Assembly: GCF_037975245.1 (NCBI RefSeq)
Contig: NC_092581.1
Span: 6,289,501-6,353,500 of the forward strand
Length of the DNA stretch: 64,000 bases
Reading direction: 5' to 3'
Source of the DNA: Apostichopus japonicus
Taxonomy: Eukaryota; Echinodermata; Holothuroidea; Aspidochirotida; Stichopodidae
Positions 21,051 through 61,597 of the stretch are shown one piece after another (the first letter of the stretch is position 1; every line of letters starts with the position of its first letter). A model generated the notes under the pieces. The model was not told where the DNA came from, did not search any database, and saw only the letters and a list, made by a program, of their open reading frames with translations. The position numbers and the translations under genes were made by a program.

Positions 21051-21894
21051 CATGGGCGGCGATCCGTACTTCCGAGTGGGGGGCGGGGGATATGACCTTG
21101 TTGACTATCTAAGCGTAGCGCCACCATGAGTTGGCGCGAAGCGTACAAGAAGATTTTGGGATTAACAATCCCTCTAGATGGCCGGAAACGGCACTTCCCG
21201 AGGTTTCCAAGCGGCATATACCCAACTTTAAAATAGGGATGTCATGTCCGAAATATCTCATAATCAGGATCCAAAATAATTTTTTTTTTAATTTCGGGTG
21301 TTATTTTGGGAAAATTGCCCCTGTCAATCTTGCTTCAGGCGCAACGTTAGAATGTTCGAGAGCTCTGTTATATTATTCGATGAAGAAAATGGCCTCATGC
21401 AGGCTATTATAGGCCTATACACATGCAATACACAATTACACATAGTTACATTCCTAGGTACCGATTGCTAGGGCATCCAGGTGAAACGTGTATTAAGCAT
21501 TACCCTGGTTACATGAGATTCTCAGCTGTTCGAGGGAACATGTACGTGTGTAGGCCTACTATAGGGCCTATATGAATACTATGAGGGTGCATATATGTAC
21601 TATATCAATACCGTGGGCGCAATAATACATTTTGTTGTTATAGGGCCAATGAAGCCTACAGTCAACTATTTTTGCTTTATAAAGACGCTTTATTTGAAAA
21701 GATCGCACTGCGTTTATGGTAGGCGAGAAATGAAGCTAAAAAAGAGCCGTACATTAACGAAGATGCATAAATGTAGGCATGAAAATATTCTTATCCCTGG
21801 CATTTGGTGGGGGGGGGGGTATGGTGCATTACATCCCCTCCACCCATTTCCATGGGGGGATATATCCCCCCTCCACCCAGGATCGCCGCCCATG
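21051..21894 (+). mobile_element. hAT-like MITE family A, copy 1
   Basis: Ends CATGGGCGGCGATCC and its complement. The flanks GTCATATG (21043-21050) and GCCATATG (21895-21902) are an 8-bp duplication with one change, the hAT signature. A second copy at 46342-47155 in the opposite orientation is similar over its whole length. It has no coding capacity. It carries the structured core at 21104-21203 shared with other MITE families. Inserted inside the 20911-22254 element. Confidence 0.9.
21104..21203 (+). repeat. Shared structured MITE core, copy A
   Basis: Runs from ACTATCTAAGCGTAGCGCCA to GGCCGGAAACGGCACTTCCC. It includes two potential hairpins: GCGCCA-8 bases-TGGCGC, and GCCG-GAAA-CGGC. Related copies lie at 47003-47107, 47610-47704 and 61501-61597. 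Confidence 0.85.
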
Positions 21895-22299
21895 GCCATA
21901 TGTGATCCATTTTTCGACCTTAATAATAAGCAACATTTCCAGTAAATATGGACACAAAATGCACAATTTAGTATGGCTGGCATGTCATTTAGTGTTTATA
22001 GTGATAATACAAACACAATTACCATCTATGTTTCTAAAACTATTATGCCGCCGAACTTCGCCAGAACCTTTTTTTGGCAAACAAAAAATAAAGCATACGG
22101 GAGGGGGGGGGGGGGGTTGAGCGATCACCGACATCTCACATAAAGGTCGTCATCAATTTTTTTTTTTTTTTTGGCTAAACTTTTTTTTTTTTTGGTGACG
22201 GCCAATAGGGGGGGGGCGCGCGCCTGTTGCGCCCCCCCCCTGGATACGCCCCTGATATTTAAGATCACTTTCTTGCAATATTTACGGTGTATGTATGTA

Positions 22300-22455
22300 T
22301 GTATGTATATGTGATCTTCCCGCAAGCAGGAACTCGCGAAAGAAGCCATGGAGGCTTGTAGACTCGCAAGCTGACCGAAGCCAATCTCTCGGCACACATC
22401 CATTTAACGTCCATGTCAGGAAGTTGTTATTGAACAACACCCTTGCCAGACGACA
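22300..22455 (-). mobile_element. tRNA-derived SINE body, headless copy
   Basis: On the minus strand it shares with the SINE at 34260-34430 the blocks ATGGACGTTAAAT, CTTCGGTCAGCTTGCG, ATGGCTTCTTTCGCGAGT and CTGCTTGC. Its tail is a (TATG)n run at 22288-22312. The tRNA-like head is absent, so it is 5'-truncated or diverged. It lies just outside the right end of the 20911-22254 element. Confidence 0.75.
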
Positions 22456-22519
22456 CACATTGCTGTCGGCGGTGACATGGTTATTTATGAAAAGTCCGAA
22501 TACGTGGAACTTTTGATAA

Positions 22520-24290
22520 CTGGAATCAGTGATTGTTGATGATTCAGCTGTTCGTCATATGTCTGATTACTAAGTGTGTGTAAATATGTTTTTAAAATGT
22601 AAATATATTCTAATAGGATATCAATTATTTAACTATGTTTCAGGTTAGTTTGCCTGTCACACTCATTGCTTATGTCAATAATAGCCTACTTTCATGAGGT
22701 CTCTTATCATTTTTTATGGTTGAACAAGGCCATCATCTCCCATTTGGAAAGGATATGTGACAAAGCCAATAGACTTGCGTATCGAATATACTGACCTATA
22801 TGGATGAATTTAACATATGTGAAGATAGTGTATGGAAATAACTTTACACCGATTTCGTAAATTATGCCAGCTCAGAAAAACCTTCTTAACTTTTACCTAA
22901 CTTTCATTGCAAAGGATCCTTTTTTTAAATCACAACAATTCAATGACAATAATGGAAGTATGCCGGCAGGACTAAAGCAGTGTTTAAATGTTGTTAGATC
23001 TAATGAAATAGCATGTTGTTGATATCAGCTTCAGGGAAATAACTGATTTTTGTTAAACCAAATTAAGCACAACCCCACTGACAACAACGCTTAACCTGCA
23101 ATCCAAGTAAAAGCCAACTGAAATGCGTCTAAAGGAGTTTTTCAATACATGGCAAAACAGTTTTATTTTTAAAGATGTTGCCATTGTTCGTCTTGTACAA
23201 ATACCACACACGAGAACACTTTATACTTTAATATTTTAGTTGTCATAATGCCTTTGAAATTGCATCCTTTATGTTTCTTTCTTTTTGGTGGTACAATCCT
23301 ACATTTTACCTGTTACGGAAAATAATGCTGATGTTCAGAAGTCATTTATCAATTAAACTCATTTACTATCTTATGATGGATTTTCAAACTGTTGGTTGTA
23401 GGGAACCAGTTCAGTTGGATTGGTCATGGACTGTTTCACTGCTTCACATAAAAAATAAAATTGTACAAATGTATTTACTCTCTATATGTAAAGCATATGT
23501 TTGTTCTGGTGGGGTGATCATACTTATCTTTGTAACATATGCTTAACGTTCGATTTGGAATAAAAGCAAATGAACACAGCACCGCGGCAGCTGTCGGTTG
23601 GATGATAGGCTGGGTAAGTATGCAGGATTCTTAGCATTAAAGCAGCATTTTGCGTTCTTTTCTATGGTTTTTCTCAACCTCACTGATTCCACGATGCCAT
23701 AACGACATACATAACTAGCTTATCTTTTCAAATCTTACTTCAAATGGTGGCAATAAAGTCGAAAAATTTACAACTTTCAACTTTGTTTTTCTCGAAGATA
23801 TTTTCCGTTGGGATCCAAATAAACCACGCCCATAATATGAATATTTAAAAGCTACGAACGTCATTGGCCAATACGTAATACAGCACCAAGCTTGATTTGA
23901 GCAGATTGTCTATGGCAGTTGCAGGGAGCTGCTGTTAAGAGTCCAGCTCGCTGGTTGTACCAAGTTACCAACTCGACGTTTGAATCTATTTTTAGCAACG
24001 GCTCATAACTAAACCTGCATCTATGATTGGTTGGATTCAAACTAGTGGGTTGGGGGAACTATATGCGACTAATATAAAAATGTGGAATTTGTCGGTGGAC
24101 AGTTTTCTCATTATATGCAAATGTCCTTAATTACTCGCCAGTTAACGCTTTTGGCAGGGAAAAACTTGGCTAATAACTTACTTTGCTGTTTTGTGATTGA
24201 TATATGTAAAAAACTTGATGGACTTGTCAAAAAAGTGGAAAACGGCGACGAAACGCAAAATGTTGCTTTAAGGTACGAGCCATTGTTTTC
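22520..24290. other. No gene recognised
   Basis: AT-rich sequence with short frames only. The 91-codon frame at 23271-23546 has no family similarity. Confidence 0.35.
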
Positions 24291-24699
24291 TTTTAGACCG
24301 TGGGGCAAAGCCGTTTTTCTTGCAGTTCCGTAGTCCAGTCAGAGGGGCAACTCAAAATTACTCTCAAAAATTCACAAAAATTATATTATTCGTAAATCCG
24401 CTTTGTTCCACCAAAAATTTGCGCACGTTTTTTAGTTATTCGGTAAACTTGGTACTATTTTTTGCACGAAAGCACTTGGAAACTCTCTCTTTGAAAGGTA
24501 GGATTAAGTCCGTATACACCAATCGCAAAGCAGCATTACTGCCAAATGACAATCACATGACAATAAGCACACACAAATCAGCATGGCTATCACATAGTTA
24601 TGTTGAAACGTCCATATTTTGCGTACGAAAACAAGTTCGTTCGTCCAAGTTTTTCAAATTTGATAGATGTACCGATATGACCTGAAAACAACATACCTA

Positions 24700-25930
24700 T
24701 TTACCCAATGGTGAGTACTTTTCAGGTTCTTTTCATATGAAATAAAGTTGAAATCGTCATTCGAAGTTCGTATTTACACAGCCGAATCACGTTTGGCAAG
24801 TATTGATAGGATGGACACTGGAACAGCTAGTTTCGCGAAAACGGTTCAATCTTAACTGTTGAGTCATTAGTGTACGATTTGCCCGTGTTTACTGAAATTT
24901 TTACTCAGTATTTGCCTAACTTTTTCATACTCTTGAGCTTTGTGGGTAGTAAAGTTACATTTTTATGACCCCAAGAAGCTAAAAACAAGGCTTGTCTACA
25001 TTATAGTCCGTCAACTAAAAGAAGATTGAAAATGACATTAGGACAAATTGAGTGATAGACTAACGTTAATCATTAACATGGTGACTATTCGCAGAGGCTG
25101 CTAGTGTACGTAGGTAAAGTCACACGCTTTCGTATCGTAATCTATGTGTATACTATATGTATATTTACAACTAGATAACATCAATTTGTTTATATGTTTT
25201 GTTATTTAACTTTTGGCATGAGGGTGAAATTCAGTTAGCTTAATAAGCTAATCACACCGAGGCCCTCCCCTACATGTAATTTAAGCTAGGCCTAGGCCTT
25301 CTACAACTAGCATTGACCAGTAGTCAATAGAAGGAATAGAAGTACTTGTCCCATGTATATTAAACTGAATTGCACTAGGATAAAACTGATGTCTTGTTTT
25401 TACTATATCGTTCAGTAATAGTAATGACTGTGGGCTACTGTTTGAGCAGTCTCGTTTTCCAATTGTGTACACTGTTGGAATAAATAAAGACTGATTTGTG
25501 ACAACATGTCTAAGGCAGTATGACATTGCTTTACATTTAAGGACTATTGAAAAGTAGACAGCTTTTATGGTTTGACAATTGAGATGCAATAACCTGGTCG
25601 CATATAAGACATAGTTTGTATTGGAAACTTTCAAAGTCACACTACCTCCATCGAGAAGCTTTGTCAATAATCAACCCATTGTATTCAGTAAAACGTGTTT
25701 TCATTTTCAGGTTATATATTGGAAATTTACCTAACCACATCAAATCAATTTTGCTATGCCTGATAAATCAAGACAGTTACCGAGTTACGTAGACCAAACT
25801 CTGTTATTTTTGCAAACCTTAAATAGTCGACTCATTTTTCTACAGCAAAGTAATTAAACTATTGCTTATTTACATTCCCTTGTAGGTCTTTCAACTATGA
25901 CCGAACCAACCTCAACTGATTATGATAGGA
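24700..25930. other. Interior of the CXC element upstream of its gene
   Basis: Expected to hold the N-terminal half of the element's gene, but no matching blocks were recognised on the plus strand. A 128-codon open frame on the minus strand (25667-25281) has ordinary composition and no family match. Confidence 0.35.
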
Positions 25931-25934
25931 GTGA

Positions 25935-26036
25935 AGAACCATGTGTCATACACCATCCAATGTAGATGTCAGTGACATTTACAAGAAGTTCACTCCCAAG
26001 ACTTGGGATACTTTCCTAAAATGCATGGATATATGA
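25935..26036 (+). pseudogene. N-terminal block of the CXC-type transposon protein
   Basis: In the same frame as the main ORF downstream. It reads CHTPSNVDVSDIYKKFTPKT and WDTFLKCMDI, then TGA at 26034. A block of the form FT-KTW-TF-KC is typical shortly before the conserved parts of large uncharacterised transposon-associated proteins in invertebrates. The stop and missing sequence before 26148 show decay, or introns I cannot resolve. Confidence 0.45.
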
Positions 26037-26147
26037 AAGGATCATACTCACACTGAAAATGGAAAAACTGCCATTAAGTTTTAACATTTTCAAAATTGTG
26101 ATCTACAGTACAGTCAGCCTTCCTACCTGCACTTCTAGTTCCAACTA

Positions 26148-26831
26148 ATGGTGGATTTCACAGGAAATGCTATCAGAGATTTACGGATGCAACCAGAATT
26201 GAAATGGTTAAGAAAGCCAAGATGTGATTCAGTAAGTGCCTTTTTCTTGAAGGGAAAAGTGAAAGCCTTGAGACACATACAAGGTGATGCAGAATCTGCA
26301 AAGTCACTAAAGATGTTGGGTGACTCCTTTCGAGTTGATGAAGTCAATTTCCTTGCTGTTGAAAAATTCGTCTACAAGCTGTATGGTCAAATGGATGCAA
26401 CTTCAGTCAACAACGTGCGGTTTGATATGTTTAAGAAAGCCAACAGGATGGAGAGTACAATGCCTCCAAATAATGATGCCCTTCGTCAACATATCCTTCG
26501 TGCCAACTGCCAGGCAAGAATTTATAAATTAAGCTGAATGAAGAATCAAGATTTACCATCTCCTAGTGAAGATGGATGGGTATTTGATGATGGACACTTT
26601 GCCATTCATTGGATGAGCCTCCCACCTGCTCCTGAAAGCATAATTGAACTTGGGAACTGCTCATGTAAGAAAAACAAGTGCCAACTACCAAATGCAGGAG
26701 ACAGTTGCTGTGTATCCTTCGGCCTTCCATGCACAGATTTATGCCAATGCAAGGGGTGTGAAAACATCAGTCAGATTATACTTGAGATTGAAGAAGACTT
26801 GGACACAGACGAAGATGATCAGATGGAATAA
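26148..26831 (+). pseudogene. CXC-type transposon-associated protein, C-terminal half, one in-frame TGA
   Basis: A 684-bp frame interrupted once, by TGA at 26535, with ATG resuming in the same frame. First part: RCDSVSAFFLKGKVKALRHI, then VEKFVYKLYG and ALRQHILRANCQARIYKL. Second part: LPSPSEDGWVFDDGHFAIHW, SLPPAPESIIELGNCSCKKN and a Cys-rich end (CQ, CC, GLPCTDLCQCKGCEN), then acidic residues. The order CD-TSA-F-KGK, R-H--RA-YQ--IW, P-P---GW, LPPAPE-ILEL--C-CK--C and GL-CT--C-C--C-N matches a large family of uncharacterised mobile-element proteins in invertebrates, ending in a CXC-like metal-binding motif. Biochemical role is not known to me. The single stop suggests recent inactivation or readthrough. 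Confidence 0.7.
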
Positions 26832-26839
26832 CTAGTTTT

Positions 26840-27714
26840 TAGTCTTGGAACAGCCATGATAATAACTGACTGTGTAAGCTGTGCCCAGGCAGACTTTCTG
26901 CAAATCTAGCCATTTGTATGTTAAGTTTGAGAGCTCTCATGTGTTCGTATTTTGTAGCATGAAGTTAGAATCAAGAATTGGCAAAGCCATTGGGTACTGG
27001 CACTGGAGGGGAGGGGAGGGGGCTTCCCCATCAGAATTTTGTGTCTCTGGTCAATTAAAAAATATTGCAATGCCATATTGTAATTACTTTTATGTTGTGG
27101 TCAATTCAAGGAATGAAGGTAGCAGAAGGCAGAAGAAGGTAGCAGAAAGTTTAACTCAATAGTATCATTATTTATGCAAACAAATTTTGAAGGGATGAGT
27201 TCAGGATAATTGTACCCCCAGAAAAAGTTCATGGTACCAATTGCAATGTTTCTAAACTATAACATCACATAAATTTGTTGTAAATACCCTTTTCAGAGTG
27301 AACATATAAGCTTAACAATTGTCACATTGACAATGTCTGTGTCATTGATCTTCAATCTCATTCTCCATATAGCACGTACTGTGAGAAAATGAAGGAATAG
27401 TTATTAAAGGTGCACCACTGGCATAACTACTGGCATATTTAAGGTAACATTAACATTGCATTTCATGTTCACACATTAAGTTATGTCAATCCTCGAATCT
27501 ACATTATGTGTAAGCTTGCTTTTAAACTATGAGTGTGTATGGACAAACTGAATATATGTGTGGTTATAACCCCAAACCTGTTATTGATATTTATTATGTT
27601 ACTTTCTAATAGATCTAGACATTTCTAAAAGAGTTAGGTCAATTCCATTTAAATGTAGAGGTGTTAAAACCAGTTTGAAAAAATAGAGGGCGCCCTTTAT
27701 TTCCAGTATTCTTG
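26840..27714. other. 3' part of the CXC element, non-coding
   Basis: AT-rich with short frames. Likely 3' UTR of the element gene, running into the right inverted repeat. Confidence 0.4.
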
Positions 27715-28061
27715 TACCGCCATTTTCTCCTTAACGTCCGCGAAATTTTGGTGGAACAAAGTGATTTTTATTTTAGGGTGTTCTAAGCAACACTTTTATT
27801 AAGAAATTATGTTGCCCCCAGAGGTGGACTACGGAAGTCAAAAACTAAAGGGATTTTTGCCTTATGCCCCACGGTCTAATGGAGACACAATATTTGTGTG
27901 CTGTAACTTGTGACGTTATATCTGATACAGAACAACATCATTTTTATTTTATTTTTATTTTTTTTATTATCATTCTAACAAGAGTCCAAAAAATGTACAA
28001 TTCATAATAACATATACTTTATGACCAATAGTCAATATTATCGTCAACAACAAATAAATCA

Positions 28062-28523
28062 TTAAACTTCAAATAAAGATTTCCACTTATGCCATCTGAT
28101 ATTAAAAGCATTTTGCTTACAATTAGTTTGATACATAAACTTTTCTTTTACATAAAAATTCTTTAAATCAATTTTACCATAGTTAAAGGAAGGATTCTCA
28201 TTTTTAACCTTACTTTTGTAAACAAGAAATTTCATAACCAGAAGGATGTTATTAAACACATAGTCTTTGTACAAATAATTTCCAAACAGAACAAGCTCTT
28301 TACTAACTGCAATATTGATATTCAGTTTGATTTGAACCCAGATTTGAAACTCCCTCCATACTTTCTGGGTGAAGCTGCATTCCCAAAATAAATGAATTAA
28401 AGTCTCATCTGCCACACCACAAAAAGTGCACAATGGATCAATGGTTTTGCCAATTTTAACCATGAGAGTATTTGTCCCTAAAATTCTGTTAAGAAGACGA
28501 CATTGGAACCAACGGAGCTTCAC
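28062..28523 (-). pseudogene. LINE C-terminal zinc knuckle (zf-RVT type)
   Basis: Reads KLRWFQCRLLNRILGTNTLM, then CTFCGVADETLIHLFWECSF and QKVWREFQIWV. The CTFC-x4-ET--HLFW-C pattern is the zf-RVT knuckle that closes ORF2 in many LINEs and plant-type retroelements. The frame then runs on to a stop at 28062. Just below it the A-rich tail marks the 3' end. Confidence 0.85.
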
Positions 28524-28739
28524 CTCAGAAGTACATTTCCAGTTGTATGCAACACTTTATACCAATCTACTTCAGCAAAAAGTGGGGACAAAGCATGTTC
28601 CATTTGTGAATACAGTTATATTGGACCTTATTAATTGTTAATAAAATATTATAAACCTGTTACACCCTTTTGGATCCATAAAAAACAGTTTTAATATGAA
28701 AGCCTTGAAATGGGGGTGCAAGAGAATTATTTATCTGGC

Positions 28740-29507: not shown

Positions 29508-29591
29508 TGTTGCCCCAAGATAACTGAATATATTATCTCCACCCCAATATAAGTTATAATTCTTACATAAAATATCATCACTACCTTTATT

Positions 29592-30572: not shown

Positions 30573-30721
30573 CTTTTTATAAAAACCATAAGTTTCATCT
30601 AAAATGGCCTTGTTGGTAAATTTACGAATACTATCCGATCCAGCAATTGTTTAAATCGTTTTATTTGCACAATTTCTTTTCTCTAGACTCAAGAAATACG
30701 AGGAGGGTTTTTCACCAGTTT

Positions 30722-40629: not shown

Positions 40630-41482
40630 TTACGTTTCACAAGTATAAGTCATTAAGCGATCGATGTAATTAGAAATGATCGGGGCTTTCGGATGAACAT
40701 TGTCAGGAAACGGTTGAACTTGAGTAATATCCCATGTGTCGATAAATCCGAATTCTTTATAATCTTTATATAATTCCCTTAAAACAAATTCAAATTGTAG
40801 GGCGATCCAGTCACTCGATATGAGTTGGTAGGTCTTCACCGAATAATTTCTTGTATTGGCTCCTTTCATGTAGATTTTAGTTCCTGGTGGGGACCTGGCT
40901 AGTAGCCGGTCCAGTGCATCCCGGACAGATTCAAGACGCTTTTTGTAGAAATCCATCCCTGTCATAGTAAAATGGGCCCAATAAGAAAGAAATATAATTG
41001 TACCTGGACCTCCCTCTAGTCTGTCAATATCGTTAGCAGCGTAGTGGATACCAGAAATAGGACTAACATTACTACCTTTGGTTGGAAGACCATGAAATTG
41101 AAAATGTAATGTAACATTGTTTATTCTGCAACGACAATCCAACCGACTACTATTTCTCGGTGGATCTAAAGGAATCGATTTGCATTTCAGAAACTTTTGG
41201 AGAACTTCATAGACCTGACGACTTGTGGAATCACCAAATATTCGAACAGTCTTTCCATTAAGACATTCTAATATATCTTCTTTTGAGAAATGTTTGATCC
41301 TGCAGTTCAAAGGATACCAAATATTTTGAAAGAAGTATCCGTTTGTTTTGATTGGTGGAGGACCCTCTGGCTTACAGTATGGTAACATCGATCCTGCTAT
41401 CTCGGCGTAGTGTGCTGTGGTAGAGTTATCCCTTTGTTGCACTGTTATCAATCCTTTGGAACGGTAAACAAGGCTCTTGGAT
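40630..41482 (-). CDS. NXPE family protein, exon with PC-esterase domain (last)
   Basis: The last exon of an NXPE (neurexophilin and PC-esterase domain) gene. The acceptor AG is at 41483-41484 and the first base completes an Arg codon from the previous exon. About 284 codons end in TAA at 40632-40630. Motifs: LPYCKPEGPPP, ILECLNGKTVRIFGDSTSRQ (GDS nucleophile block of the PC-esterase/SGNH-like fold), CRCRINNVTLHFQFHGLP, IIFLSYWAHFT and FPDNVHPKAP (DxxH catalytic pair). All catalytic positions seem present. NXPE proteins are secreted or Golgi proteins; an acetyltransferase-type role on glycans has been proposed for members. Intact, so probably functional. Confidence 0.93.
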
Positions 41483-41925
41483 CTGTTTAAGAGAAATATC
41501 GTTGAAAATATTCAGTGCTCAATAGCCGTTTGTTCTAGACAGAAGACAAACTTAGTTTCAGCCAGACGGCTTAAATGCAAAATGGTGCTTTTATTGTGAC
41601 AATAATTCAAGTAAAGCTTAATTGTATTTCACTTGAGCGGAATTCCTGTAATTATATATTTTAATATATATTAATTATATATTAATCATACATTAGGAGA
41701 GTACGGAGTGTGGCCTAATGTCGAGATTTAAATAAAACCTACGTTTAAATTTTTCGAGTAAGTAGCCTATATTAATTCTTATCATTTCCATAATACACAA
41801 TAGCTCATTATTTTCTTTTTGCCATATTTTTCATTCCTCGTCCCGATTTCGTCCATTAAAATGTATGTACTGTGCCCGCCTCACCCCTTCTGGCTACACG
41901 ACTGGGAATGACAATACTTTCCAAC

Positions 41926-44236: not shown

Positions 44237-45217
44237 CTGAAAATAAAATAATCATATAGATATCTAAACCAAATAAATTAATCCATACAATACTTTTGTC
44301 TTTTAATAGCGCTCAACTTGACAATCCAATATAAATGTCCATTTTCTGCGTCCTGGATTGTCAACACACAATAACATTATTAAGTGGAAGGTAACAGACA
44401 GTGCAATTTAAGATTAAAAGTCTAAGGAAATGTAAGTCTATATGGTAAATAACCTCACAGCCCAACCACTCCCACCCCCACCCCACCCCACCCATAAAAT
44501 GAATCACAACTACCATCTTGATAGTTTGCTGAGATGAGATTGTGAAATGTATTTATTTTAAATGCATTCTGTAATATTTTAGGATGTCATACGTGGACAA
44601 TGCATTAATCTGTCTTTGTCTTCACTGGCCTCCTTAATCACTGTTTCATTTTGATGAAATCAGGTAGTATGCCTTACCAACATAAAATAATAACTTTTCC
44701 CACAAGTTAATTACATATAAAATGCCCAAACCACTGTGTCAACAACAAACAAAACAGTACAAGTTTATAGGTCTACTAATGTATTGAAATTTCTCGAAAA
44801 TAAGTGTTCTTTGTGGGTTGCAAAAGACCGCATCATTCGCAGTTAAGAACTCGTAATGATACAAAATGTATATCATTTCAATAAATTGAATCCTACCCGC
44901 ACCCCAATCCCTCCTTTCGCCTTAAACAAAGCTATTTCACGGGCATGTATGAACAATCCAACTTTAAAGGGAAATCAAATTTGTCGGTATACTATTTCAT
45001 GTTTGACATCATTTATTCATTTCAACAAAGGGAATTAGCTGATATATTATATCTCACCAACGGAACATGTTATGAAGCTGGTCGTTTCACTAACTCAGTA
45101 TTACATATCTATAATAAATCAAATCAAATTTCGTTATGCTCTAACGTAAGAGGAATGTGGTTTATTTGAAATGATCGATACAGCCTACTTTTTCATAATT
45201 TTATGGTATAGTATTAC
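44237..45217 (-). other. NXPE intron between neurexophilin-like and middle exons
   Basis: A 981-bp intron. It contains a short CCACCCC repeat at 44467-44492 and no coding segment. Confidence 0.8.
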
Positions 45218-45772
45218 CTCTCTTTCATATATGGTGCAAGTTGTTACCTCTTGATGCATCTTGCCAGTATCATCCTTGGTTTCGAATCCTCCTTTATATA
45301 ATGCTTTGACACTTCTACCTCCCTTTATAGTTGGAAGAAACAAAGGGATAGCCTCAGCTGGATGGACCAACAAGACTTGTAAGTCAATTTCACCTTCCCA
45401 TAAAATTCTGAAAATAGCTAAATAAGTTCCATTTTGAAAATCAATGAGATGATCTGCATTTACAGCTGCGTACGGCTTCCCTGAGAATAGTTTAACCCTA
45501 AACATGTCACCTCCGTATGACTTTGATCGATTCAGACTGTCCATGGCTTCGATCTTAACAAATACTCTGTCACAAAGATGATACACATTTTTCTTATCAA
45601 GGACCGTCACTCTTGTGAAATTGGCATGTGTTATGTTATCAACGGAATAAACTGGCACATTTTGGTCAACTTCTTTGTTCGAGTTATAAAATTTGCTGAA
45701 CCAAAATCGATCAAGTGAGTTATAGTCACATCTTGTGATATTATCAACATAGCCGTTGACATCTCCTGTAGT
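45218..45772 (-). CDS. NXPE family protein, neurexophilin-like exon
   Basis: Exon of 555 bp in phase 0 with acceptor CTTACAG (45773-45774) and donor GTAATA (45217). It reads TTGDVNGYVDNITRCDYNSL, VYHLCDRVFVKIEAMDSLNR, YGGDMFRVKLFSGKPYAAVN and YLAIFRILWEGEIDLQVLLV with HPAEAI. This is the Ig-like neurexophilin/filamin-type segment of NXPE (GGD-F-A-L, V-D--NGTY-A-F-LLW-G---V-V-LVHPSEA). Several NxS/T sites (NIT, NGT, NFT) fit a luminal or secreted protein. The three exons give 526 residues against about 550 for family members, so one or more short 5' exons with the signal anchor lie further right and were not found. Confidence 0.92.
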
Positions 45773-45779
45773 CTGTAAG

Positions 45780-46333
45780 ATGAAAAATAAAACAAGAAAA
45801 GGAATAGTAAAACAATGACAATTTAATATTTCATTACCCTCTGTTTACTTTACTGCTATGACTGAGTCCTTACATATGTGACAATGTACATAGAATTAAC
45901 ACTTTGCGGGCAAGCCAAACCGTAATTATAAAATGAATGTGTATAGCAATTGGTATAACAGATATATATTGAATAAATAAAGATCAACACACCAGAAAAA
46001 ATCCTTTTGGGACTCATCAGACAAAGATAGGAATGGAACCTTAGATCTTCGTGACACAGACCTAAGTCCTTATTGGTCACAGTTATTGTACTGGTGTGAA
46101 TGCGTATTACTGGCTATGTATATCTGTCAATGTATTATTCACGTGTTACAATTAGACAGAGTGCACCTCGGGTGTGTTAATCTGAGGATTATGACTTATT
46201 TGGACATTTTGTATATCTACATTTTCTGATGACGTTGTTGGTTGATTTACATATATTGGCAAGACCTAAAATAGTAGGATATCTAACGGAAAGGCACGGT
46301 TACGCGAAACGTATATGACTTCCCACTAACACA
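45780..46333. other. 5' side of the NXPE gene, no exon recognised
   Basis: Likely intron or upstream region of the NXPE gene. No signal-peptide exon could be identified. Confidence 0.4.
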
Positions 46334-46341: not shown

Positions 46342-47155
46342 CATGGGCGGCGATCCTGGGGGGGAAGGGGGGATATATCCCCCCCATGAAAATGGGTGGA
46401 GGGGATGTAATACACCATATCCCCCCCACCAAATGCCAGGGATAAGAATATTTTCATGCCTACATTTATGCATCATGGCTTCATTTCTCGCCTACCATAA
46501 ACGCAGTGCGATCTTTTCAAATAAACCATCTTTATAAAGCAAGAATAGTTGACTGTAGGCTTCACTGGCCCTATAACAACAAAATGTATATATTATTTCC
46601 CCACGGTATTGATATAGTACATATATGCACCCTCATAGTATTCATATGGGCCCTATAGTAGGCCTACACACGTACATGTTCCCTCGAATAGCTGAGAATC
46701 TCATGTTACCAGGATAATGCTTAATACACGTTTCACCTGGATGCCCTAGCAATCGGTACCTAGGAATGTAACTATGTTTAATTGTGTATTGCATGTGTAT
46801 AGGCCTATAATAGCCTGAGGCCATTTTCTTCATCGAATAATATAAAAGAGCTCTCGAACATTCTAACGTACCGCCTGAAACAAGATTGACAGGGGCAATT
46901 TTCCCAAAATAACACTCGAAATTAAAAAAAAGTATTTTGGATCCTGATTATGAGATATTTCGGACATGATATCCCTATTTTAAAGTTGGGTATATGCCGC
47001 TTGGAAACCTTGGGAAGTGCCGTTTCCGGCCATCTAGAGGGTTTGTAAATCTCCAAATTTTCTTGTACGCTTCGCGCCAACTCACGGTGGCGCTACGCTT
47101 AGATAGTCAAAAAGGTCATATCCCCCCCACTCGGAAGTACGGATCGCCGCCCATG
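46342..47155 (-). mobile_element. hAT-like MITE family A, copy 2
   Basis: Ends CATGGGCGGCGATCC and its complement, flanked by a perfect 8-bp target duplication GTAATTGA (46334-46341 and 47156-47163). It is homologous over its whole length, in reverse orientation, to the copy at 21051-21894, with shared blocks such as ATGCATAAATGTAGGCATGA and ATAGGCCTATACACATGCAA. It is 814 bp against 844; the differences are small indels and the length of G runs. No coding capacity. Confidence 0.95.
47003..47107 (-). repeat. Shared structured MITE core, copy B
   Basis: Reverse-complement copy of the core at 21104-21203. The GCGCCA/TGGCGC and GCCG-GAAA-CGGC hairpins are both intact. Confidence 0.85.
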
Positions 47156-47383: not shown

Positions 47384-47767
47384 CAGTGGCGGAGCGTCCA
47401 TACAGTCAGGGGGAGGATGCCCCCCCGCCCTGACGGACTCAAATGGACTGCTGGCGCCCTTTTCAGCTCTTTACCACTTTTTACTTATTCGCGATTATTG
47501 ACTTTTTTATTGCGCTCTCATCTACTTATTGACATTTGTCACATTTTGTTGGTGTAATTTGGCGATGACACCTATTTATTCTTCGTTTATCTGCAAATTA
47601 GCCAGGCCCGGAAATGCTCATTTCCGGCGATCTAGAGAGTATCTTTACTCAAAAATTGTCTGTACGCTCCGCGCCAACCAGTGGTGGCGCTCCGCTTAGA
47701 TAGTGTCGAAAGCGCCCCTACAGACCATTCTCGACCCCCCTGACCAATACCCCTAGCTGCGCCACTG
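47384..47767 (-). mobile_element. 384-bp MITE family B (CAGTGGCG ends)
   Basis: Ends CAGTGGCG/CGCCACTG (imperfect further in), flanked by ATCAGCT at 47377-47383 and 47768-47774, a 7-bp direct repeat. Its right half holds a copy of the structured core otherwise seen in family A and in the element at 61423. Its other internal sequence is unrelated to family A. No coding capacity. Confidence 0.85.
47610..47704 (-). repeat. Shared structured MITE core, copy C
   Basis: On the minus strand it matches TAGATAGT-type start through CGGAGCGCCACCACTGGTTG and GCGCGGAGCGTACA to the CTAGAtCGCCGGAAATG end. The first hairpin is kept; the second is altered. Confidence 0.8.
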
Positions 47768-51396: not shown

Positions 51397-53278
51397 GCAG
51401 AGATGGGACAGCACATCAACGTACGTTATACTGGTGTGGTAACGTAGAGATGGGAGAGCACATCGACGTACGTTATACTGGTGTGGTAACGTAGAGATGG
51501 GAGAGCACATCGACGTACGTTATACTGGTGTGGTAACGTAGAGATGGGACAGCACATCGACGTACGTTATACTGGTGTGGTAACGTAGAGATGGGAGAGC
51601 ACATCGACGTACGTTATACTGGTGTGGTAACGTAGAGATGGGAGAGCACATCGACGTACGTTATACTGGTGTGGTAACGTAGAGATGGGACAGCACATCG
51701 ACGTACGTTATACTGGTGTGGTAACGTAGAGATGGGACAGCACATCAACGTACGTTATACTGGTGTGGTAACGTAGAGATGGGAGAGCACATCGACGTAC
51801 GTTATACTGGTGTGGTAACGTAGAGATGGGAGAGCACATCGACGTACGTTATACTGGTGTGGTAACGTAGAGATGGGACAGCACATCGACGTACGTTATA
51901 CTGGTGTGGTAACGTAGAGGTGGGACAGCACATCGACGTACGTTATACTGGTATGGTACCGTAGAGATGGGACATCACATCGACGTACGTTATACTGGTG
52001 TGGTAACGTAGAGGTGGGACAGCACATCAACGTACGTTATACTGGTGTGGTAACGTAGAGATGGGAGAGCACATCGACGTACGTTATACTGGTGTGGTAA
52101 CGTAGAGATGGGACAGCACATCGACGTACGTTATACTGGTGTGGTAACGTAGAGGTGGGGCAGCACATCAACGTACGTTATACTGGTATGGTACCGTAGA
52201 GATGGGACAGCACATCGACGTACGTTATACTGGTGTGGTAACGTAGAGATGGGACAGCACATCAACGTACGTTATACTGGTGTGGTAACGTAGAGGTGGG
52301 GCAGCACATCAGCGTACGTTATACTGGTGTGGTAACGTAGAGATGGGACAGCACATCGACGTACGTTATACTGGTGTGGTAACGTAGAGATGGGACAGCA
52401 CATCGACGTACGTTATACTGGTGTGGTAACGTAGAGGTGGGACAGCACATCAACGTACGTTATACTGGTGTGGTAACGTAGAGATAGGACAGAACCTCAA
52501 CGTACGTTATACTGTTGTGGTAACGTAGAGATGGGACAGCACATCGACGTACGTTATACTGGTGTGGTAACGTAGAGATAGGACAGAACCTCAACGTACG
52601 TTATACTGCTGTGGTAACGTAGAGATAGGACAGAACCTCAACGTACGTTATACTGTTGTGGTAACGTAGAGATGGGACAGCACATCAACGTACGTTATAC
52701 TGGTGTGGTAACGTAGAGATGGGACAGCACATCGACGTACGTTATACTGGTGTGGTAACGTAGAGATAGGACAGAACATCAACGTACGTTATACTGTTGT
52801 GGTAACGTAGAGACGGGACAGCACATCGACGTACGTTATACTGGTGTGGTAACGTAGAGATGGGACAGCACATCGACGTACGTTATACTGGTGTGGTAAC
52901 GTAGAGATCGGACAGCACATCGACGTACGTTATACTGGTATGGTTACGTAGAGACGGGACAGCACATCGACGTACGTTATACTGGTATGGTTACGTAGAG
53001 ATGGGACAGCACATCGACGTACGTTATACTGGTGTGGTAACGTAGAGATGGGACAGCACATCGACGTACGTTATACTGGTGTGGTAACGTAGAGATGGGA
53101 CAGCACATCAACGTACGTTATACTGGTGTGGTAACGTAGAGATGGGACAGCACATCGACGTACGTTACACTGGTGTGGTAACGTAGAGATGGGACAGCAC
53201 ATCCACGTACGTTATACTGGTGTGGTAACGTAGAGATGGGACAGCACATCAACGTACGTTATACTGGTGTGGTAACGT
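51397..53278. repeat. 47-bp tandem array, about 40 copies
   Basis: Head-to-tail units of 47 bp containing GTACGTTATACTGGTGTGGT, AACGTAGAGATGGGACAGCA and CATCRAC. Copies are close to identical. Variants include GAGAGCAC or GACAGCAC, GAGGTGGG, GATAGGACAGAACCTC and CTGGTATGGTACC. The array starts with a partial unit and stops abruptly after GGTAACGTTAC. Each unit carries the palindrome ACGTACGT. 47 is not a multiple of three, so it is not protein-coding. Confidence 0.97.
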
Positions 53279-53289
53279 TACTTTTTCTT

Positions 53290-54020: not shown

Positions 54021-54889
54021 AAAATTGAGAGGCTTAAAGATTTTTTTAAAACATAATATATAAGAATTTCACCAAAAATTAAGGAAGAAATTAATCTGTT
54101 ATCAAACGCGGTTTTTGTTGTGATTACTGTAGCCTACTGTATGGAGCGTGGGTTATGTCGCAAGCTGCATTTGCGAAGATAACGTCACGTTCTCTTCTGT
54201 TCAAAGTATATTTGAATATCCATTTAATATCCGATTAAAAAATCGTTCCTCTGTTAAACGCAACACTAGCGTTCTCATATTTTAAATACATATTTTGAAA
54301 ATTATTTTCGTTTTGTAAGAGTTACTTGTAAGGGCTACAAGACAATTCTTTTAACAGGTTAGCACTAGGATTATGTTAGGGCTAGATCGGTCCATAAACC
54401 GTAGCTTTAGGCCTGAGTACCCGGGTACCCGAACGAACATTCGGGTACGCGAATCGAAAACGCACAAAACGGGTACCCGTTCTCTTGGGAAAAACGGCGT
54501 AACTGCTACGCTGTAAGGTATGCATGTGTTGATTAATCAAGGCACGCGAATACGGAAGATAAATTTCATGAAATAAGTTTCTTGTAGTGTAGATGGTTGT
54601 TTTAATTACTTACTATTTCAACTTGTAGCCATTCTTAATTATTCTTTTCGTGTGTGGATAAATCATTCAACACCGAAAACGAAAATATTATACCGGTGAA
54701 AACTACTCAAAATTGAAACCTTCAATCCATCACAACTGCAACAGTATACTCAAAGTACTACATTCCCATTCAAAACATAGCACTACCTTCCAAACAATTG
54801 CCTATTTGCAGCTAATTGAAAGTTGTAAACAAGGCTACGCAAAGTGGGTGTGTGTGTGTTTGTTTTTTGTTCTTTTTCCTTTTAAAACC

Positions 54890-55080
54890 GATGGTTAGGC
54901 ATGATTTCCTTATTGACTTAGTGTGGTGTTAGACTACCATGTGGTCGAAGATAGCAATAATTAAAGCATTCCATGGATATTTTAGTTCCAGCTAACTGCG
55001 TCACAATTTGAGCGAATAAACAGATGGTTAGGTTAGATTTACTCTTTGTGATTTGAGGCTACCATGTGGTCGAAGATTTT
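54890..55080. repeat. Direct repeat (GATGGTTAGG ... CTACCATGTGGTCGAAGAT)
   Basis: Two diverged copies, at about 54889-54950 and 55023-55077, both begin GATGGTTAGG and end CTACCATGTGGTCGAAGAT. Confidence 0.75.
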
Positions 55081-55710
55081 TGGGGATTTTACGCAAACAT
55101 AGTTTTTGCTCGTGTCTTTGTTGTTATCAAGTAGCTAGCTCTGGTAGTCCATAGCAAGTGCTTTCCTCTAGATGTCATAGTTGTAGCTACTGTATGCGTG
55201 CATGCGTAAATATTGAAATTGTCAAAATTATTATTTTCATTCATTTAATTCATAGAAGGAAAGACTTGCAATGACATTTACGGGATGTTAAGATGGACTA
55301 TATAGACGGGATAACAAAACAAAATCGCAAGTGGGTTTTTGCTAAACGTTTATTCCAAATGTTATCGTTTAGCGATGAATCGCTACACGGTCACAGCCGT
55401 AATGTAGTTTTAATTCAAGTTTAGAGCGAAGTTTATTACGGGAATTCCCGTCTTGGCAACTTTTGACATGCGGGATTTCAAATCAAAGTGCGGGAATCGC
55501 GCAATCGCGCGGCTAATGCGAATCCAGGATCTTCGTTAAAGAAGCAGTCGGAAGTAATTTTATACAAGTTTTCTTTATTTCATGTGCATCTGCATTATTC
55601 TTTATGATACATCAAAACAGGAAATTCAGTTGTTCATATCAGGAGTATCGATTGAAAACGTTTACTTCGGAGGTGTAATGTAATGTGGCATAGTAATCGG
55701 CCATTTATCC

Positions 55711-58060
55711 ATGTACATTGTTTGGCTAGTTCTTCATTTTATTTTCAATATTCGGTCCGAAGTTTATTATTGTGGAGACATTCATCGAAAAGAAATCTTT
55801 ACTCTGATAAATGTTTATGGTCCTAACACAGACGATCCACACTTTCTTGATCTCTTGAGTTCGTCTCTTTCTGATTCTGACAATGATTCTCTCATTTTTG
55901 GGGGGCGGGGGAGGGGGGTTTCAATTTCGTTTTCAATTTAGATGTCAACAAACTTCGTGGTAATCCTATGACTTAAGGCACGGGGTTAGTGTACTGAGTC
56001 AATGTATACTTTCGATTTGTGTAACATTGCGGGGGAAGGGGAGGGGGGAGAAACCGGCACCAGAAAAAGGTCACTTTGAGTTCGAACATTACGCCAGGTA
56101 TTAGGTGTAGATTTGACCTTGTTCTCATCTCTCGTCACATCTATAACTTGGTAGCGACAAACAATCTCTCTCCCAGTTTTCAGTCCGATCACGTGGCAGT
56201 AAATCTCACACTTAATTTTCATAATAATCAGCGGATCCGGGTTTTCTGGAAATTTGGTAACTCTTTGCTTTTCGATGAGCTCACTAGTCAATTAAAAGAT
56301 ATTATCATCTCGGATAGCCACGACATTCAGGATAGTAATCCGTCTGCGAAATGGGAACTCATTAAATATAAAATACGTTTTATTACTGTGAAATACAGAA
56401 AAAGAAAAGCAGTGGAGAGCAATAAACAGAACTCATGAAGGAGATTTGTAAATTACAATGTATTTATTGTAATTTCAATTTACCTGAGGACCTAATAGAA
56501 TGAAGGGCGCCGGAGCTCAGCTTGTTGCCATTTATGATTATAAGTTAAGTTAAGTTTATCAGTTCTACGTAAAAATAAAAGTACTTTTTTTTTGGAAAAC
56601 CGCATAAGGTTGGTAAATGTTATCCGCAAATTTCAAATTGTTTCTGGGGATATTATGACAGATGAAGTTAGCATTTTGGAAGAATTAAGATTTTTTTTAT
56701 CGAGGACTTATACAGTAGTCAGTGTTGTAGGCCATCTTCTTTTTCCCCAGAACCTTTGCTGTCTTAATCCTCTTAGTAGTGAAGACGCCAATGTTTGGCG
56801 AGCTTTCAAAGGAGGAATGTAATAATCCTTTATTTGCTTTTGAAGATATAAAATAAGAGCCCTAGGAGTGATGGTTTAATGGCCGAATATTATAGTTTTT
56901 TTAGGCATATTAGTTCCAATCTGGTTACGAATTCCCGCAATCTTTCTTACAATCATGGCACCTTGTCGCACGTCAAACAGTCTCGTGGCATCATCGCTCT
57001 TCTGCCCAAACCATGCAAGGATCTTGTTTTACTTAAAAACTACCGTCTCATCAGTCTGCTGAATGTAGACTATAACATTTTTTCGAAATCCCTATAGCTT
57101 TTAAAATTAAACATGTCATCAATAATTTAATCGATCCGAATCAAACGGGGTTTATTAAGGGTCGCTTCATAGAACATATTCGTTATATTTTATATTTTAT
57201 ATACGATTGGCTACACGGATACCATGTCGATCCCTGGGTGCTAAGTGTTTGTTGATTTTAAGAAAGCGGTTGATAAGTTAGAATGGGGATTAGGTTTTAA
57301 AATTCTTAGTTTTTTCAAGTTCAGTAATGACTTTTCTCGCTAGATTCGTACTTTATATCTCACATCTTCTGCTTGCGTGTGTAACAATTCTTTCTCGTGT
57401 AATTCGTTCCCCATTTCCAGTGGAGTTAGAGGGTTGCCCATTAAGCCTGGACATTTTTATTTTATGTGCCGAGGTTTTTGCGTAGTTTTGAGTAGTTAAG
57501 TTATTAAAGGTATATTACAATTGACAACAATGAAATTCATGTTTTCCAGTCTGCTGATGCCACAACTGTTTCTCTTGAGGGGGAGTGAAGCCTTTTTGGC
57601 TGAAATAAATAAATATTTAAGCTTCTTGAGAGTACTTCAGGGCTAAGAGTAAACTGCAACAAAACTTCTATTTATCCCTTGGGTCCTTTTTATAAGAAGA
57701 AAACCAAACTTTTTTTGACATGTAATCCTTTAAATGGACAATTGGTCCAATTACTGTGTTGGGTGTTACTTTGAAGAGGGGAGATGATGAAAGTCTTTTC
57801 CAGCATAATTTTATTCCCAGGCTCTCACGTCTAAAGGCATTCTTCATATGTGGTCACAGCGCGACCTTACTCCTATTGGTAAGATAACGTTCTTCAAGTC
57901 TTTTGCCCTGTCTCAGATGGTGTTTTTTTTTTTTGTTAAGGTCTTCCTAATCCTCCTGTTGTATTTTTGGCAAGTTCTTCCTAATCCCCTTGTTCAGTCT
58001 ATTAAGAGCCTCGAGTCAATTGTATTCAATTTTATTTGATCAGGCAAGCCAGATAAGGTT
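55711..58060 (+). pseudogene. Second L1/Tx1-like LINE ORF2, heavily decayed
   Basis: Plus-strand fragments in ORF2 order. Endonuclease: IFTLINVYGPNTDDPHFLDL (55795) and RFDLVLISRHI, PSFQSDHVAVNLTLNF (56110-56215). Linker after 56590. RT: RGIIALLPKPCKDLVLLKNY and ISLLNVDYNIFSK (56970-57090), NLIDPNQTGFIKGRFIEH (57125), LFVDFKK-type block, ISSGVRG, and SADATTVSLEGE where FADD is expected (57548). Thumb: WSQRDLTPIGKITFFKSFAL (57850). Many stops and frameshifts, a damaged catalytic box and C-terminal loss show an old copy. It belongs to a different lineage from the LINE at 28-32 kb by motif wording (NVYGPN against SLYGPN, ISSGVRG against SGCRQGD). Confidence 0.8.
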
Positions 58061-58383
58061 AAGCGTAGCACGATGATAAATCCTATTGGGAAAGTGTGCA
58101 CTCAAACATCCATATAACTTTCTCATTTTTCATGCGAAATACTTCATATTTCTACAAAAACTCTGGGCAGTATTCCTAAGATTATGAATTTCTTTTACAA
58201 ATTTAAGTTCTACTTACAAGTTGTTAAACGTTCTCTCTGTTTACAGTTCTATTTATCTTATGCGCTGGTGACCTAGTCAAGATTGCTTGCTTATTTGATT
58301 ATAGAGTTGAACCTGAAGTATGATGCCACTAGTAAAGTACACTTTTCTGATCTCTGTACTGCAACAAGTGTTATTTATCAGGG

Positions 58384-58432
58384 CCTCCAATCTGCTAGAC
58401 AGATGCTCTAACCACTTGGCTACGCTCATGTA
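58384..58432 (-). mobile_element. tRNA-like half (A box), SINE head fragment
   Basis: On the minus strand GTAGCCAAGTGGTTAGAGCA is a good RNA polymerase III A box in a D-arm context. It is followed by TCTGTCTAGCAGATTGGAGG, which resembles an anticodon arm. The T arm with B box does not follow. Probably a truncated tRNA-derived SINE inside the 54028-58898 element. Confidence 0.5.
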
Positions 58433-58899
58433 CATGTAGGAGAACAATTGTCACTTTATTAATCAAGGTTAGATGTGGAAATAGACTGTGTGACTACTGC
58501 TTTGGTTGGAGGAACATTCACATGCAGTATTTGAACATCAATATCAGTGTACACAGACAGTTGCACAGGTGCAGACTTAAAAGAATTGTCTGGTAGCCCT
58601 TAGAAATTACCTTAAAAATCGATAAATAATTTTCAAAATATGTTTTCAAAATATGAGAAAAATGCGCTTGACAGAGAAACGATTTTGTAATAGTTTAGGA
58701 TGTATATTTCAAATATACTTTGAACAGTAGAAAACGTGACGTCATCTTCGCAAATGCAGATTGCGACATAACCCACGCTCCATAAAGTTCTTACAGTAAT
58801 CACACACAAAAAACGTTCGAAAACAGATTAATTTCTTCCTTATTTTTGGTGACATTTCTTATAAATTATATATATTTTTTTTTAAATCAATTAAGCCAT

Positions 58900-59820
58900 C
58901 ATAAATGTAGTGCATCGGTGATTTTGTGTAACACAAGATAAGTTTGAACAGCAGATTCTTCGTTGTTTATACATCGTGTTGTCAAGCTCCAATGCGAGGA
59001 ATGTTCGCATCTAGGCAACTCTAACGTTTACAATCGGACAGTTCTGCGAAGCCTAAGCTTCTCGGTACTACATTCTGCTCTGACATTGATTCCTCGAAGT
59101 TTCATCTTTCGATCTTCCAAATACTTTCCAAGCTTCCTTTTGTTGTCAAGTTGATCCGTGAATTTTATTTCAGCGATGTCAAAGAACAGTTTATGAACTG
59201 TAGTTTGAGTGTGAGAGTGTATTATCTGCGACGCTATATACGTACCAACTGGGCATGGTAGGCTGTATACGTACATACGCGATGTGTACGTAATACATTA
59301 TAATAGGCAATCACCTAGCTGTGCGTGTACATGCGAGAGTGTCTTTGCTGCGGAAATGGGAGTGCTAACTTAAAGTCGCTCGTTTTGCCTATTTGCCTGC
59401 ACTACGTCATTCAACAAATTGACGCGGGCGAGCAAACGTTGCTTTTGTCGAGAAACTGGTGAATTTGAAAACCAGATTTTTACAAGAAGAAAACGTCGAA
59501 TGGGGACAATTTTCACATGGTTAGAAAGAGAACAATAATAACAACGAGGATAATGTATTCAAATCTTTTCCTTTAAATGACTGATTAATGATGTTACAGA
59601 ACATGACACACCCTTAGTATGTCCACAGACAGGACATGTAACCTGTTAAGATACCGACTAGTGTTGCCATAGCACAACGTGTCCCTCTTATACAACGGCA
59701 ACGTTGTACTCTTACAGTATTAAGCCAACCGACTAGTATTGTTGCATTACAACAGGCCTTGTTAGTGGACACTCATATTATTGTACACTCAACTCTGTCC
59801 ATGATAGCATGGACCTACAA
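58900..59820. other. No gene recognised
   Basis: An 82-codon minus-strand frame (59276-59028) contains KLFFDIAEIKFTDQLDNKRK but matches no family I know. The rest has short frames only. Confidence 0.35.
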
Positions 59821-59824
59821 AACA

Positions 59825-61310
59825 AAGAATCCAAACAACATGGAGAAGAATCCATCAAGAATGCTATCAGAATAGCACTGGCAGACCTGCTAAGGGAGAA
59901 AGTGCAGATGATTGTTGACAGATTGGGAAGTTTGGGAGCATATCAACTATAGGATGCCCAGTATGTCACTGCTGAGGAGCTTTCTGAGGTACTTCTACCA
60001 GTCCACGCAAGGAAGCCATCTTCAGGGTATGGCTGATTTAGGTTGGCTACTCACTACTTTTGCAACTTTCAAAATAGGTAGATATGTGCAGTTACTTTAC
60101 TTTAGCAAAGAAATGAATAAGGGGTGTTTTGAAATATTGGACTGCATTGGTTGCCATCTGTAATTATGCTGTATTTGAACAGTCAAAATATATGGCTTTA
60201 ATCATACTATCAATCTTAATTAGCAGGTTGAAATATTCAGAGTCCTGTTTGAACAAATAAGTAATGCTGTAACATTATGTCTATAACATAGAGTGCAATT
60301 AAATCGCGTGCAAACATTTTCTTCATTACATCTTTAATAAATCCTAATGCATATAAAAGTGTAATTGGTTTCCTAGACCTCTCATTATCTCAAGGTACGT
60401 TGTCAGATTTCAGTCCTGACTTAGCCAGTCCTGCTTCAGATAGAGATGATTGGGCTAGAGAATTTCAGGTCCCTTGGAATAATTTCCCTACCCAGTTTAT
60501 GAAGGTGTGTAAGTCTGGTCACACACCATGACCTAAATGTAGAAGGGATATGATCCTGTGTGATAACATTGAAACATCTACTAACAAAGTAAGTAGGCAA
60601 CAACTCCATTGTTGCACACGTGATGGTTTCTAAGTATAGTGTTCTTGTTGATGGGTTTGCAATAGGGTCAGAATTTTACTCTTTGATTGGTCAATTGAAA
60701 ATCGTTTGTACCATCTCAATTGAAAGCCGGCCAGTCTGGATTTTGGTAATCTGATGCCAAACCAGAAACCTCATTTTCTTAAGCCAAAAATGAGAGATAA
60801 ATATATATGGAGTGTTAACTGGCAGCAAGTATGTATCGATGAAGGGGAAATACAACAGTCTTTAGACGAGAAAGGCAAATTGCTTGTAGAAGAACATGAA
60901 AATGTTGTAAGAGATTGAAGAAAGGTTCTGAGTACCTGGCGTCTTGCTACATTCTTCATCGCAAACTGATCAACAAAGAACCTCCAGTAAGCACTTTGGG
61001 AAGTTAAGTCTGCATGGCCATTTCTCTTTGAAAAGCCATGGCCACTGCAACATTTTCAACAGTTAGTTGGGAAATCTTAGGATGAAATTCTTGTTGAAAT
61101 GCAGGACAGAGGGTGAAGAATATTTGATTTCAAGAAAAGTTGTAGCAAAAAAAAGGTGTGCGATCTTGTCTTAGTCTAATTGAGAAAGCTGTAGCAGCCC
61201 TTGGCAATGAAAAGCCTAAGACTATAAGACTAGTGCTTCTCATGCCGAAATATCTTGAAGAAGGGACTGACATTTCATTAAAGGTGGGGGCGCTCGTATA
61301 CTTTAAGTAA
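59825..61310 (+). pseudogene. SAMD3-like expanded-family gene, decayed
   Basis: Plus-strand blocks in order. First ADLLREKVQMIVDRLGSLGA (59880), then AQYVTAEELSEVLLPVHARK, a SAM/helical-bundle type segment (GV---DL--V-E-DL--VL-P-QARK). Next LSDFSPDLASPASDRDDWAR, EFQVPWNNFPTQFMKVCKSG (60400-60530), then AHVMVSKYSVLVDGFAIGSE with YSLIGQL (60615-60695), and PKMRDKYIWSVNWQQVCIDE with EGEIQQSLDEKGKLLVEEHE (60783-60900). This order fits a large family in fishes and marine invertebrates often annotated as sterile-alpha-motif domain protein 3-like; function unknown. Stops in nearly every block and frame changes make it a pseudogene. The name is from memory of the pattern, so the family call is tentative. 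Confidence 0.55.
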
Positions 61311-61500
61311 TAGGGGACTTTGATTTCAGTGGTTTTGTGTGTTACCCATTACTCACATGACTTTTCTGAGTGGTCACCTGATCGTAGCTGTACCTGACTG
61401 TGAACGGTATTGTGCGGCAAGCCAGCGACGTAGCCAGGAATTTGAAAGGGGGGGGGAGCACTTTTTGCGATTGATATGGATTATCAAAGTTGTAGGCACG

Positions 61501-61597
61501 ACTATCTGAGCGGAGCGCCACCATCGGTTGACGCGGAGCGTACAACAACACTTTTGGTTTTACAAACCCTCCAGATGGCCGGAAACGGCCCTTCCCT
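61501..61597 (+). repeat. Shared structured MITE core, copy D
   Basis: Starts ACTATCTGAGCGGAGCGCCA and ends GATGGCCGGAAACGGCCCTT. The GCCG-GAAA-CGGC hairpin is intact; the first stem has one change (TGACGC). Confidence 0.85.

Follow-up and report, generated by a model that had tools for sequence, protein, structure and literature searches.

Six elements of one body plan, four with a common core

We analysed a 64,000-nt stretch of the Apostichopus japonicus genome (assembly GCF_037975245.1, contig NC_092581.1, positions 6,289,501 to 6,353,500 of the forward strand; hereafter the window), in which short non-coding DNA transposons with different ends carry the same core of about 97 bp. Terminal inverted repeats (TIRs) normally define a DNA transposon family and are its most conserved part; in the elements described here, conservation is higher in an inner module than at the ends. 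The original prediction, made from the letters of the window, had placed four copies of this core in three element families, and an nhmmer scan of the window recovered exactly these four and no others (E 2e-39 to 3e-35; next match E 2). The core copies, their elements and two further elements without a core are as follows, in window positions.

20911..22254, + strand: element E; body plan as in A to D; without a core of its own; host of A; target-site duplication not clear
21051..21894, + strand: element A; 844 bp; TIR CATGGGCGGCGATCC; nested in E
21104..21203, + strand: core of A; distance to the near end 53 bp
46342..47155, - strand: element B; 814 bp; family of A; 8-bp target-site duplication GTAATTGA
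47008..47107, - strand: core of B; distance to the near end 48 bp
47384..47767, - strand: element C; 384 bp; TIR CAGTGGCG; target-site duplication ATCAGCT
47610..47704, - strand: core of C; distance to the near end 63 bp
61423..63577, + strand: element D; 2155 bp; TIR CAGCGACGTAGCC/CAGGGACGTAGCC; 8-bp target-site duplication CGGCAAGC; element F inside
61501..61597, + strand: core of D; distance to the near end 78 bp
61734..62582, + strand: element F; body plan as in A to D; TIR CAAGGGCGGCGG; without a core; nested in D

Elements A and B belong to one family (91%), and C and D to others, so the core bearers represent three families of short TIR elements, the number predicted. The duplications of 7-8 bp that had been reported for them are present in all four: they match at 8/8 positions in B and D and at 7/8 in A (GTCATATG/GCCATATG), and measure 7 bp in C. 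The duplication of F also matches at 7/8 positions (AAGTTACA/AAGGTACA). All six elements follow one body plan, with a TIR and a G-run at the near end and a GGGGG..CCCCC hairpin at the far end. This hairpin occurs at six places in the window (17 pattern rows; 0.07 expected), which are exactly the far ends of A to F.

21854..21871, + strand: far-end G-run/C-run hairpin of A
46358..46385, + strand: far-end G-run/C-run hairpin of B
47409..47426, + strand: far-end G-run/C-run hairpin of C
63533..63563, + strand: far-end G-run/C-run hairpin of D
22208..22240, + strand: far-end G-run/C-run hairpin of E
62542..62566, + strand: far-end G-run/C-run hairpin of F

The termini of all six elements start with CA, in short TIRs as in hAT transposons, and have two looks: CA[T/A]GGGCGGCG in A, B and F, and CAGNG[G/A]CGNA in C, D and E. 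Both looks include members with the core and members without it. The termini had been described as different, and distinct end types do exist, but they are not unrelated. The first 10 nt match at 6-7 positions between A and C and at 5-6 between A and D; among all 10-mers of the window, 0.9% match the start of A at 6 or more positions and 0.1% at 7 or more.

Between families, similarity lies mainly in the core

Cross-family alignments of the core score 52-67, against shuffle means of 8.2-8.6, and none of 500 shuffles reaches any of these scores. We ran the same comparison on the stretches to the left, to the right and at the far end (500 shuffles each) and on the interior (100 shuffles). In 18 of these 20 tests more than 5% of shuffles reach the observed score, which bears out the claim that the inner sequence outside the core does not align between families; the exceptions are the left stretches of C and D (10/500 shuffles) and the far ends of B and D (3/500). 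The left border of the core is sharp: when ungapped 10-base blocks are compared in three cross-family pairs (A-D, A-C and C-D), 1-3 of 10 bases match directly outside and 9-10 of 10 inside. At the right border similarity falls more gradually. Under a simple model, the chance that the core would lie near the same polar end in all three window families is ~5e-4.

The genome holds many copies behind many kinds of ends

A 28-base exact signature of the core has 9,112 matches (4518 + 4594) in the 671.6-Mb assembly, and its reversed control has none. With the arms of the first predicted stem (GCGCCA/TGGCGC, stem 1) left free, the signature has 10,915 matches genome-wide (5374 + 5541). The genome carries about ten thousand copies of the ~97-base module.

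As an unselected sample we took the first 100 listed signature places, at the start of one contig (C1), and clustered them by the 60 nt left of the core; the sample requires an intact signature and misses decayed and divergent cores. The places fall into 14 left-end clusters (sizes 24, 15, 15, 12, 7, 6, 5, 5, 4, 2, 2, 1, 1 and 1), among which the window families A, C and D are F5, F0 and F7. In the consensus of twelve clusters, which hold 97 places, a CA..GGCG-like terminus stands 37-76 bp away from the core, on the same side of it; the left-end consensus of the other two, F9 (2 places) and F13 (1 place), has none. Over the 66 pairs of these 12 families, the identity of core consensus sequences is 0.77-0.99 (median 0.85), and the stretch from end to core, beyond its first 16 nt, rises above shuffles (p <= 0.01) in 8. 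Of their first 10 nt, 4-10 agree (median 7). A GGGGG run precedes the core in 58 of the 100 places, whereas none of the 100 equal stretches downstream has one. A regular expression for the terminus found it upstream in 56 of 100 places and downstream in none; because it is blind to CAGGCGCG-type ends, we used the cluster consensus instead.

The original prediction had named, as the outcome that would speak against it, genome matches confined to one family with one set of ends. What we found behind the core were 12 terminus types in 100 unselected places, and four end types confirmed by TIR and duplication.

Complete elements have hAT-like traits

Genome queries with the cores of A, D, C and a further copy, E11, gave 1055, 779, 1749 and 591 first-look candidates, and 40 candidates were scored per query. 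The set for complete elements comprised 137 core matches in 68 loci, 123 of them usable (enough flank, clear core start). Defining a complete element by a far TIR matching at 9/12 positions or more and a duplication matching at 7/8 or more, in a terminus search that demanded a CA start, we found 35 among the 123, with lengths of 352-1933 bp. Their duplications are perfect in 25 cases (12 distinct sequences), and 32 have GGGG..CCCC at the far end. The end types confirmed in this way are CATGGGCGGCGA, CAGTGGCGGAGC and CAGCGACGTAGC, with CAGGGGCGGGAT in one copy. Seven A-query copies carry one common imperfect duplication, as expected if they lie inside amplified E, and 16 of 22 C-type rows carry CGCGGCGG, exactly or with one base changed, which would follow from a position inside a larger repeat.

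The 8-bp duplication typical of hAT is thus present in these 35 elements, at 7/8 or better, as well as in B and D. From their 8-bp duplications and CA..GGCG ends, the elements are best read as a polar, non-autonomous, hAT-like group. A fragment of a DDE_3 transposase lies beside a core cluster in one of the 68 loci (L175:218-709), and in none of the other 67.

Left ends have probably been exchanged

The 28 nt right of the core align at p <= 0.01 in 7 of 66 family pairs, and the 28 nt left of it in 3 of 66. The clearest pair is F1 and F8, with 97% core identity, a right-flank score of 27 and left 28 nt at the level of chance (p 0.16), although they do have the last 7 nt before the core in common. 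The outer flanks of three copies each of F1 and F8 differ, and for this reason their ends look like true termini. F3/F6, F10/F11 and F0/F6 behave as F1/F8, with a common core and right flank and no common left end, and F2/F7 and F5/F12 are similar on both sides of the core. The Spearman correlation of core identity is -0.02 with the left-flank score and a weak 0.24 with the right-flank score (nominal p 0.048), over 66 pairs that are not independent of one another.

As some families keep the core and right flank yet have unrelated left ends, left terminal segments have probably been replaced around a retained core. A common ancestor with swapped ends was one of the origins proposed in the original prediction, and it gains support from these families. 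Nested insertion is a likely source of new ends, given A in E, F in D and the loci with three cores. In the latter (C-query loci, among them L171, L175 and L184), each of the three cores has its own end type, and they lie ~700 bp apart. It seems that such composites were amplified as whole units.

A candidate left-end module

We put at roughly 0.5 the probability that the core acts in cis as the left-end module of a single large group of non-autonomous cut-and-paste transposons, polar and hAT-like. Its steady distance and side behind 12 end types point to such a role. Finding copies through the core cannot produce this regularity: only place, side and the diversity of ends are free of that ascertainment. 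In a typical element the TIR is often followed by a G-run; then come a short spacer particular to the family, the 97-bp core, a body that also differs by family, the G-run/C-run hairpin and the second TIR. A protein supplied in trans, most likely a transposase, would recognise the left end by its core, so that new terminal segments, which nested insertions could furnish, might replace old ones with the core retained. The near-invariant dyad GCGCCA-N8-TGGCGC would then be a double-stranded site for a binding dimer and not an RNA stem. The steady subterminal place fits the transposase-binding module that had been suggested for the core; binding itself we infer. The nearest mechanism is that of the hAT transposon Hermes, where BED domains contact the left end only (PMC10368747). 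TIR-like repeats within the core were considered and rejected: among 16 comparisons, the far TIR of C alone stands out (2/500 shuffles on one strand, 11/500 on the other). If the core is the recognition unit, families would be grouped by core and not by TIR, the turnover of ends would become measurable, and the module would point to its partner transposase.

Several observations weigh against a left-end module. All copies were found through the core, so its presence in every family is ascertained. Only four end types are confirmed by TIR and duplication; F11 and F12 are single copies, and copies of F2 and of F3 are alike outward of their presumed ends, which may be inner ends of larger elements. 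Elements E and F share the body plan without the core, so it is not required by every such element. The Hermes target pattern nTnnnnAn is not followed: among the 12 distinct perfect duplications, T stands at position 2 in 2 and A at position 7 in 4. The subterminal sites of hAT elements are described as short repeats and not as one 97-bp block (PMC10368747). Finally, A and B differ at 7 of 97 core sites and at 24 of 710 sites elsewhere (indels left out; p 0.08 towards more change in the core). Within this family the core has thus not been protected after insertion, and the host apparently does not maintain its individual copies.

A bolder form of the left-end module is possible, though we hold it only tentatively. 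It makes the 97-bp left-end cassette, and not the TIR, the lasting recognition unit of a group with interchangeable ends, in which terminal segments of 37-76 bp would have been fitted many times, one trans-acting machinery would serve many end types and the central hairpin described below might act single-stranded during transposition.

Could the core instead be functionless, the part of one ancestral element that drifted least or was taken along in nested insertion and end replacement? The lack of protection seen between A and B would fit such a heritage, as would the composites in which cores travel as passengers (the seven A-query copies with one common duplication within E-type sequence, and the three-core C-query loci) and the ascertainment of copies by core. 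A passenger, however, would not be expected to keep a steady 37-76 bp on the same side of 12 end types, nor to have so sharp a left edge, and the stretches adjacent to the core mostly do not align between families. We consider passive heritage unlikely, if still a serious contender.

Folding of the core

The dyad GCGCCA/TGGCGC, which had been reported from every copy, is perfect in three of the four; D reads TGACGC. If the core acted as a folded RNA or as single-stranded-DNA hairpins, then its stems should be kept by paired changes. Fold z-scores of the four window cores are -1.6 to -2.4 with DNA energies, which favours hairpins, and no more than -0.3 to -2.1 as RNA on both strands. In the four window copies, three stems show one two-sided change, a number reached by 417/500 shuffles. 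Across sixteen copies, 77.9% of cells are paired (0/500 shuffles); the covariation score of 0.122 is reached by 39/500 shuffles, and sliding the partners by one column gives 0.220, more than the structure itself. In 14 family sequences the covariation score of the two predicted stems is reached by 21/500 shuffles, which ignore relatedness. The GNRA stem has no two-sided change in these 14 sequences, and its third pair is unpaired in 4 of them; stem 1 has one, in copy E10. When the stem-1 arms were left free, 15 of 100 listed places were changed, each by one single-sided change, and by our reading 7 retain a wobble pair on this strand and 8 have the pair broken. The RNA fold proposed for these two stems finds little support.

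We also exchanged stem halves between families, using the 14 family sequences. For stem 1 the native halves pair better with p 0.0002 (DNA energy), 0.008 (RNA, minus strand) and 0.07 (three other measures); for stem 3 p is 0.05-0.30. A central hairpin that was absent from the original prediction has family-specific stems (GAGTA/TACTC, GGTTT/AAACC, GGCAA/TTGCC, CAGAT/ATCTG), and its matched halves outpair swapped ones with p 0.001-0.003 (Watson-Crick stem length, energies). With G-U pairs allowed, p is 0.19-0.20. A decoy with the 3' half reversed gave p 0.003-0.014, complemented decoys gave 0.87-1.0, and dinucleotide shuffles per family gave a combined p of 0.02-0.43. The central hairpin is suggestive only, being weakened by the reversed-half decoy. 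Rfam 15 has no match in the window at gathering score and none up to E 1 in 21051-21300. Taken together, the DNA fold, the half-swaps and the two-stem covariation speak for a single-strand module and the G-U, decoy, shuffle and sliding results against it; we regard this reading as distinctly improbable.

Further readings of the core

Three cores contain the word CCNSYAGRKGGC, which we take to be a CTCF-like consensus:

21171-21182: CTCF-like word, in the core of A
47029-47040: CTCF-like word, in the core of B
61568-61579: CTCF-like word, in the core of D

These are its only occurrences in the window (0.09 expected), as might be the case if the core drew a host DNA-binding protein such as CTCF and thereby gained favourable insertion or expression. 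The word was, however, picked after the sequence had been viewed, and its three occurrences are copies of a single original. It is missing from C, and AGATC or AGATT stands at its place in the consensus of several families. We regard a host-factor site as very unlikely. We give almost no credence to the core as a mobile unit of its own, inserted into unrelated transposons, which would suit the sharp left edge and many end types but not the steady place and side near one end, the right flank common within family groups or the failure to see, by eye, any duplication flanking the core.

A coding core was rejected. No + strand frame is free of stops in all four window copies; on the minus strand, a stop in C interrupts the frame that A, B and D keep open; and the codon-position pattern is uninformative.

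Relation to known systems

The closest published case is CMITE, a set of non-autonomous TIR elements of Acropora corals in which conservation between families is higher in a 75-bp inner region, of unknown origin, than in the TIRs (Wang et al., 2010; PMC2872659). CMITEs measure ~100 bp, duplicate TTAA on insertion and have ends of the piggyBac type. In our elements, too, the inner region outconserves the TIRs between families. Unlike CMITEs, they are 352-2155 bp long, with 7-8 bp duplications, CA..GGCG ends, a polar plan, a core near one end only and ~10,000 signature matches, and they have neither the TTAA duplication nor the CC[C/T]T terminal motif. With hAT and Hermes they share 8-bp duplications, short imperfect TIRs and, if the core is read as proposed, recognition beyond the TIR at one end, a feature described for Hermes (PMC10368747); they differ in duplications that depart from nTnnnnAn and in having one long block in place of scattered short repeats.

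Our literature search returned no title-level transposon paper with the letters of the core or TIRs (most subscription journals lay outside its scope) and no further case besides CMITE of an inner region conserved above the TIRs (Repbase and Dfam also lay outside). The core-sharing superfamilies of short interspersed nuclear elements (CORE, V, Deu and Meta) likewise have a conserved central block in families with different heads and tails. Their families have a pol III head and no TIR, whereas the elements described here have TIRs and fixed-length duplications; ARAGORN finds no tRNA gene in the window. Among the matches listed from viral, prokaryotic, plasmid and phage collections there were no relatives of the core, and a core profile run on the fetched pattern matches gave nothing convincing (best of 131 loci, E 0.005, 15.7 bits).

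Other features

Upstream of the core in one locus (L157), a ~42-bp palindromic insert breaks the core start, with ACGACTATC on each side by eye; the pair is likely a 9-bp duplication of another small element. In the window, inverted arrays of a CATTTCGCCCAACC motif (967-1059 and 7290-7422) enclose ~6.2 kb, possibly a transposon with repeat-array ends; an open frame between them (6141-6596) has no Pfam match at E 0.001. At 51399-53278, 40 copies of a 47-bp unit stand in tandem, with 95% matches, and open frames resembling NXPE4_C and neurexophilin, which mark the window as animal DNA, lie at 40630-41511 and 45185-45844.

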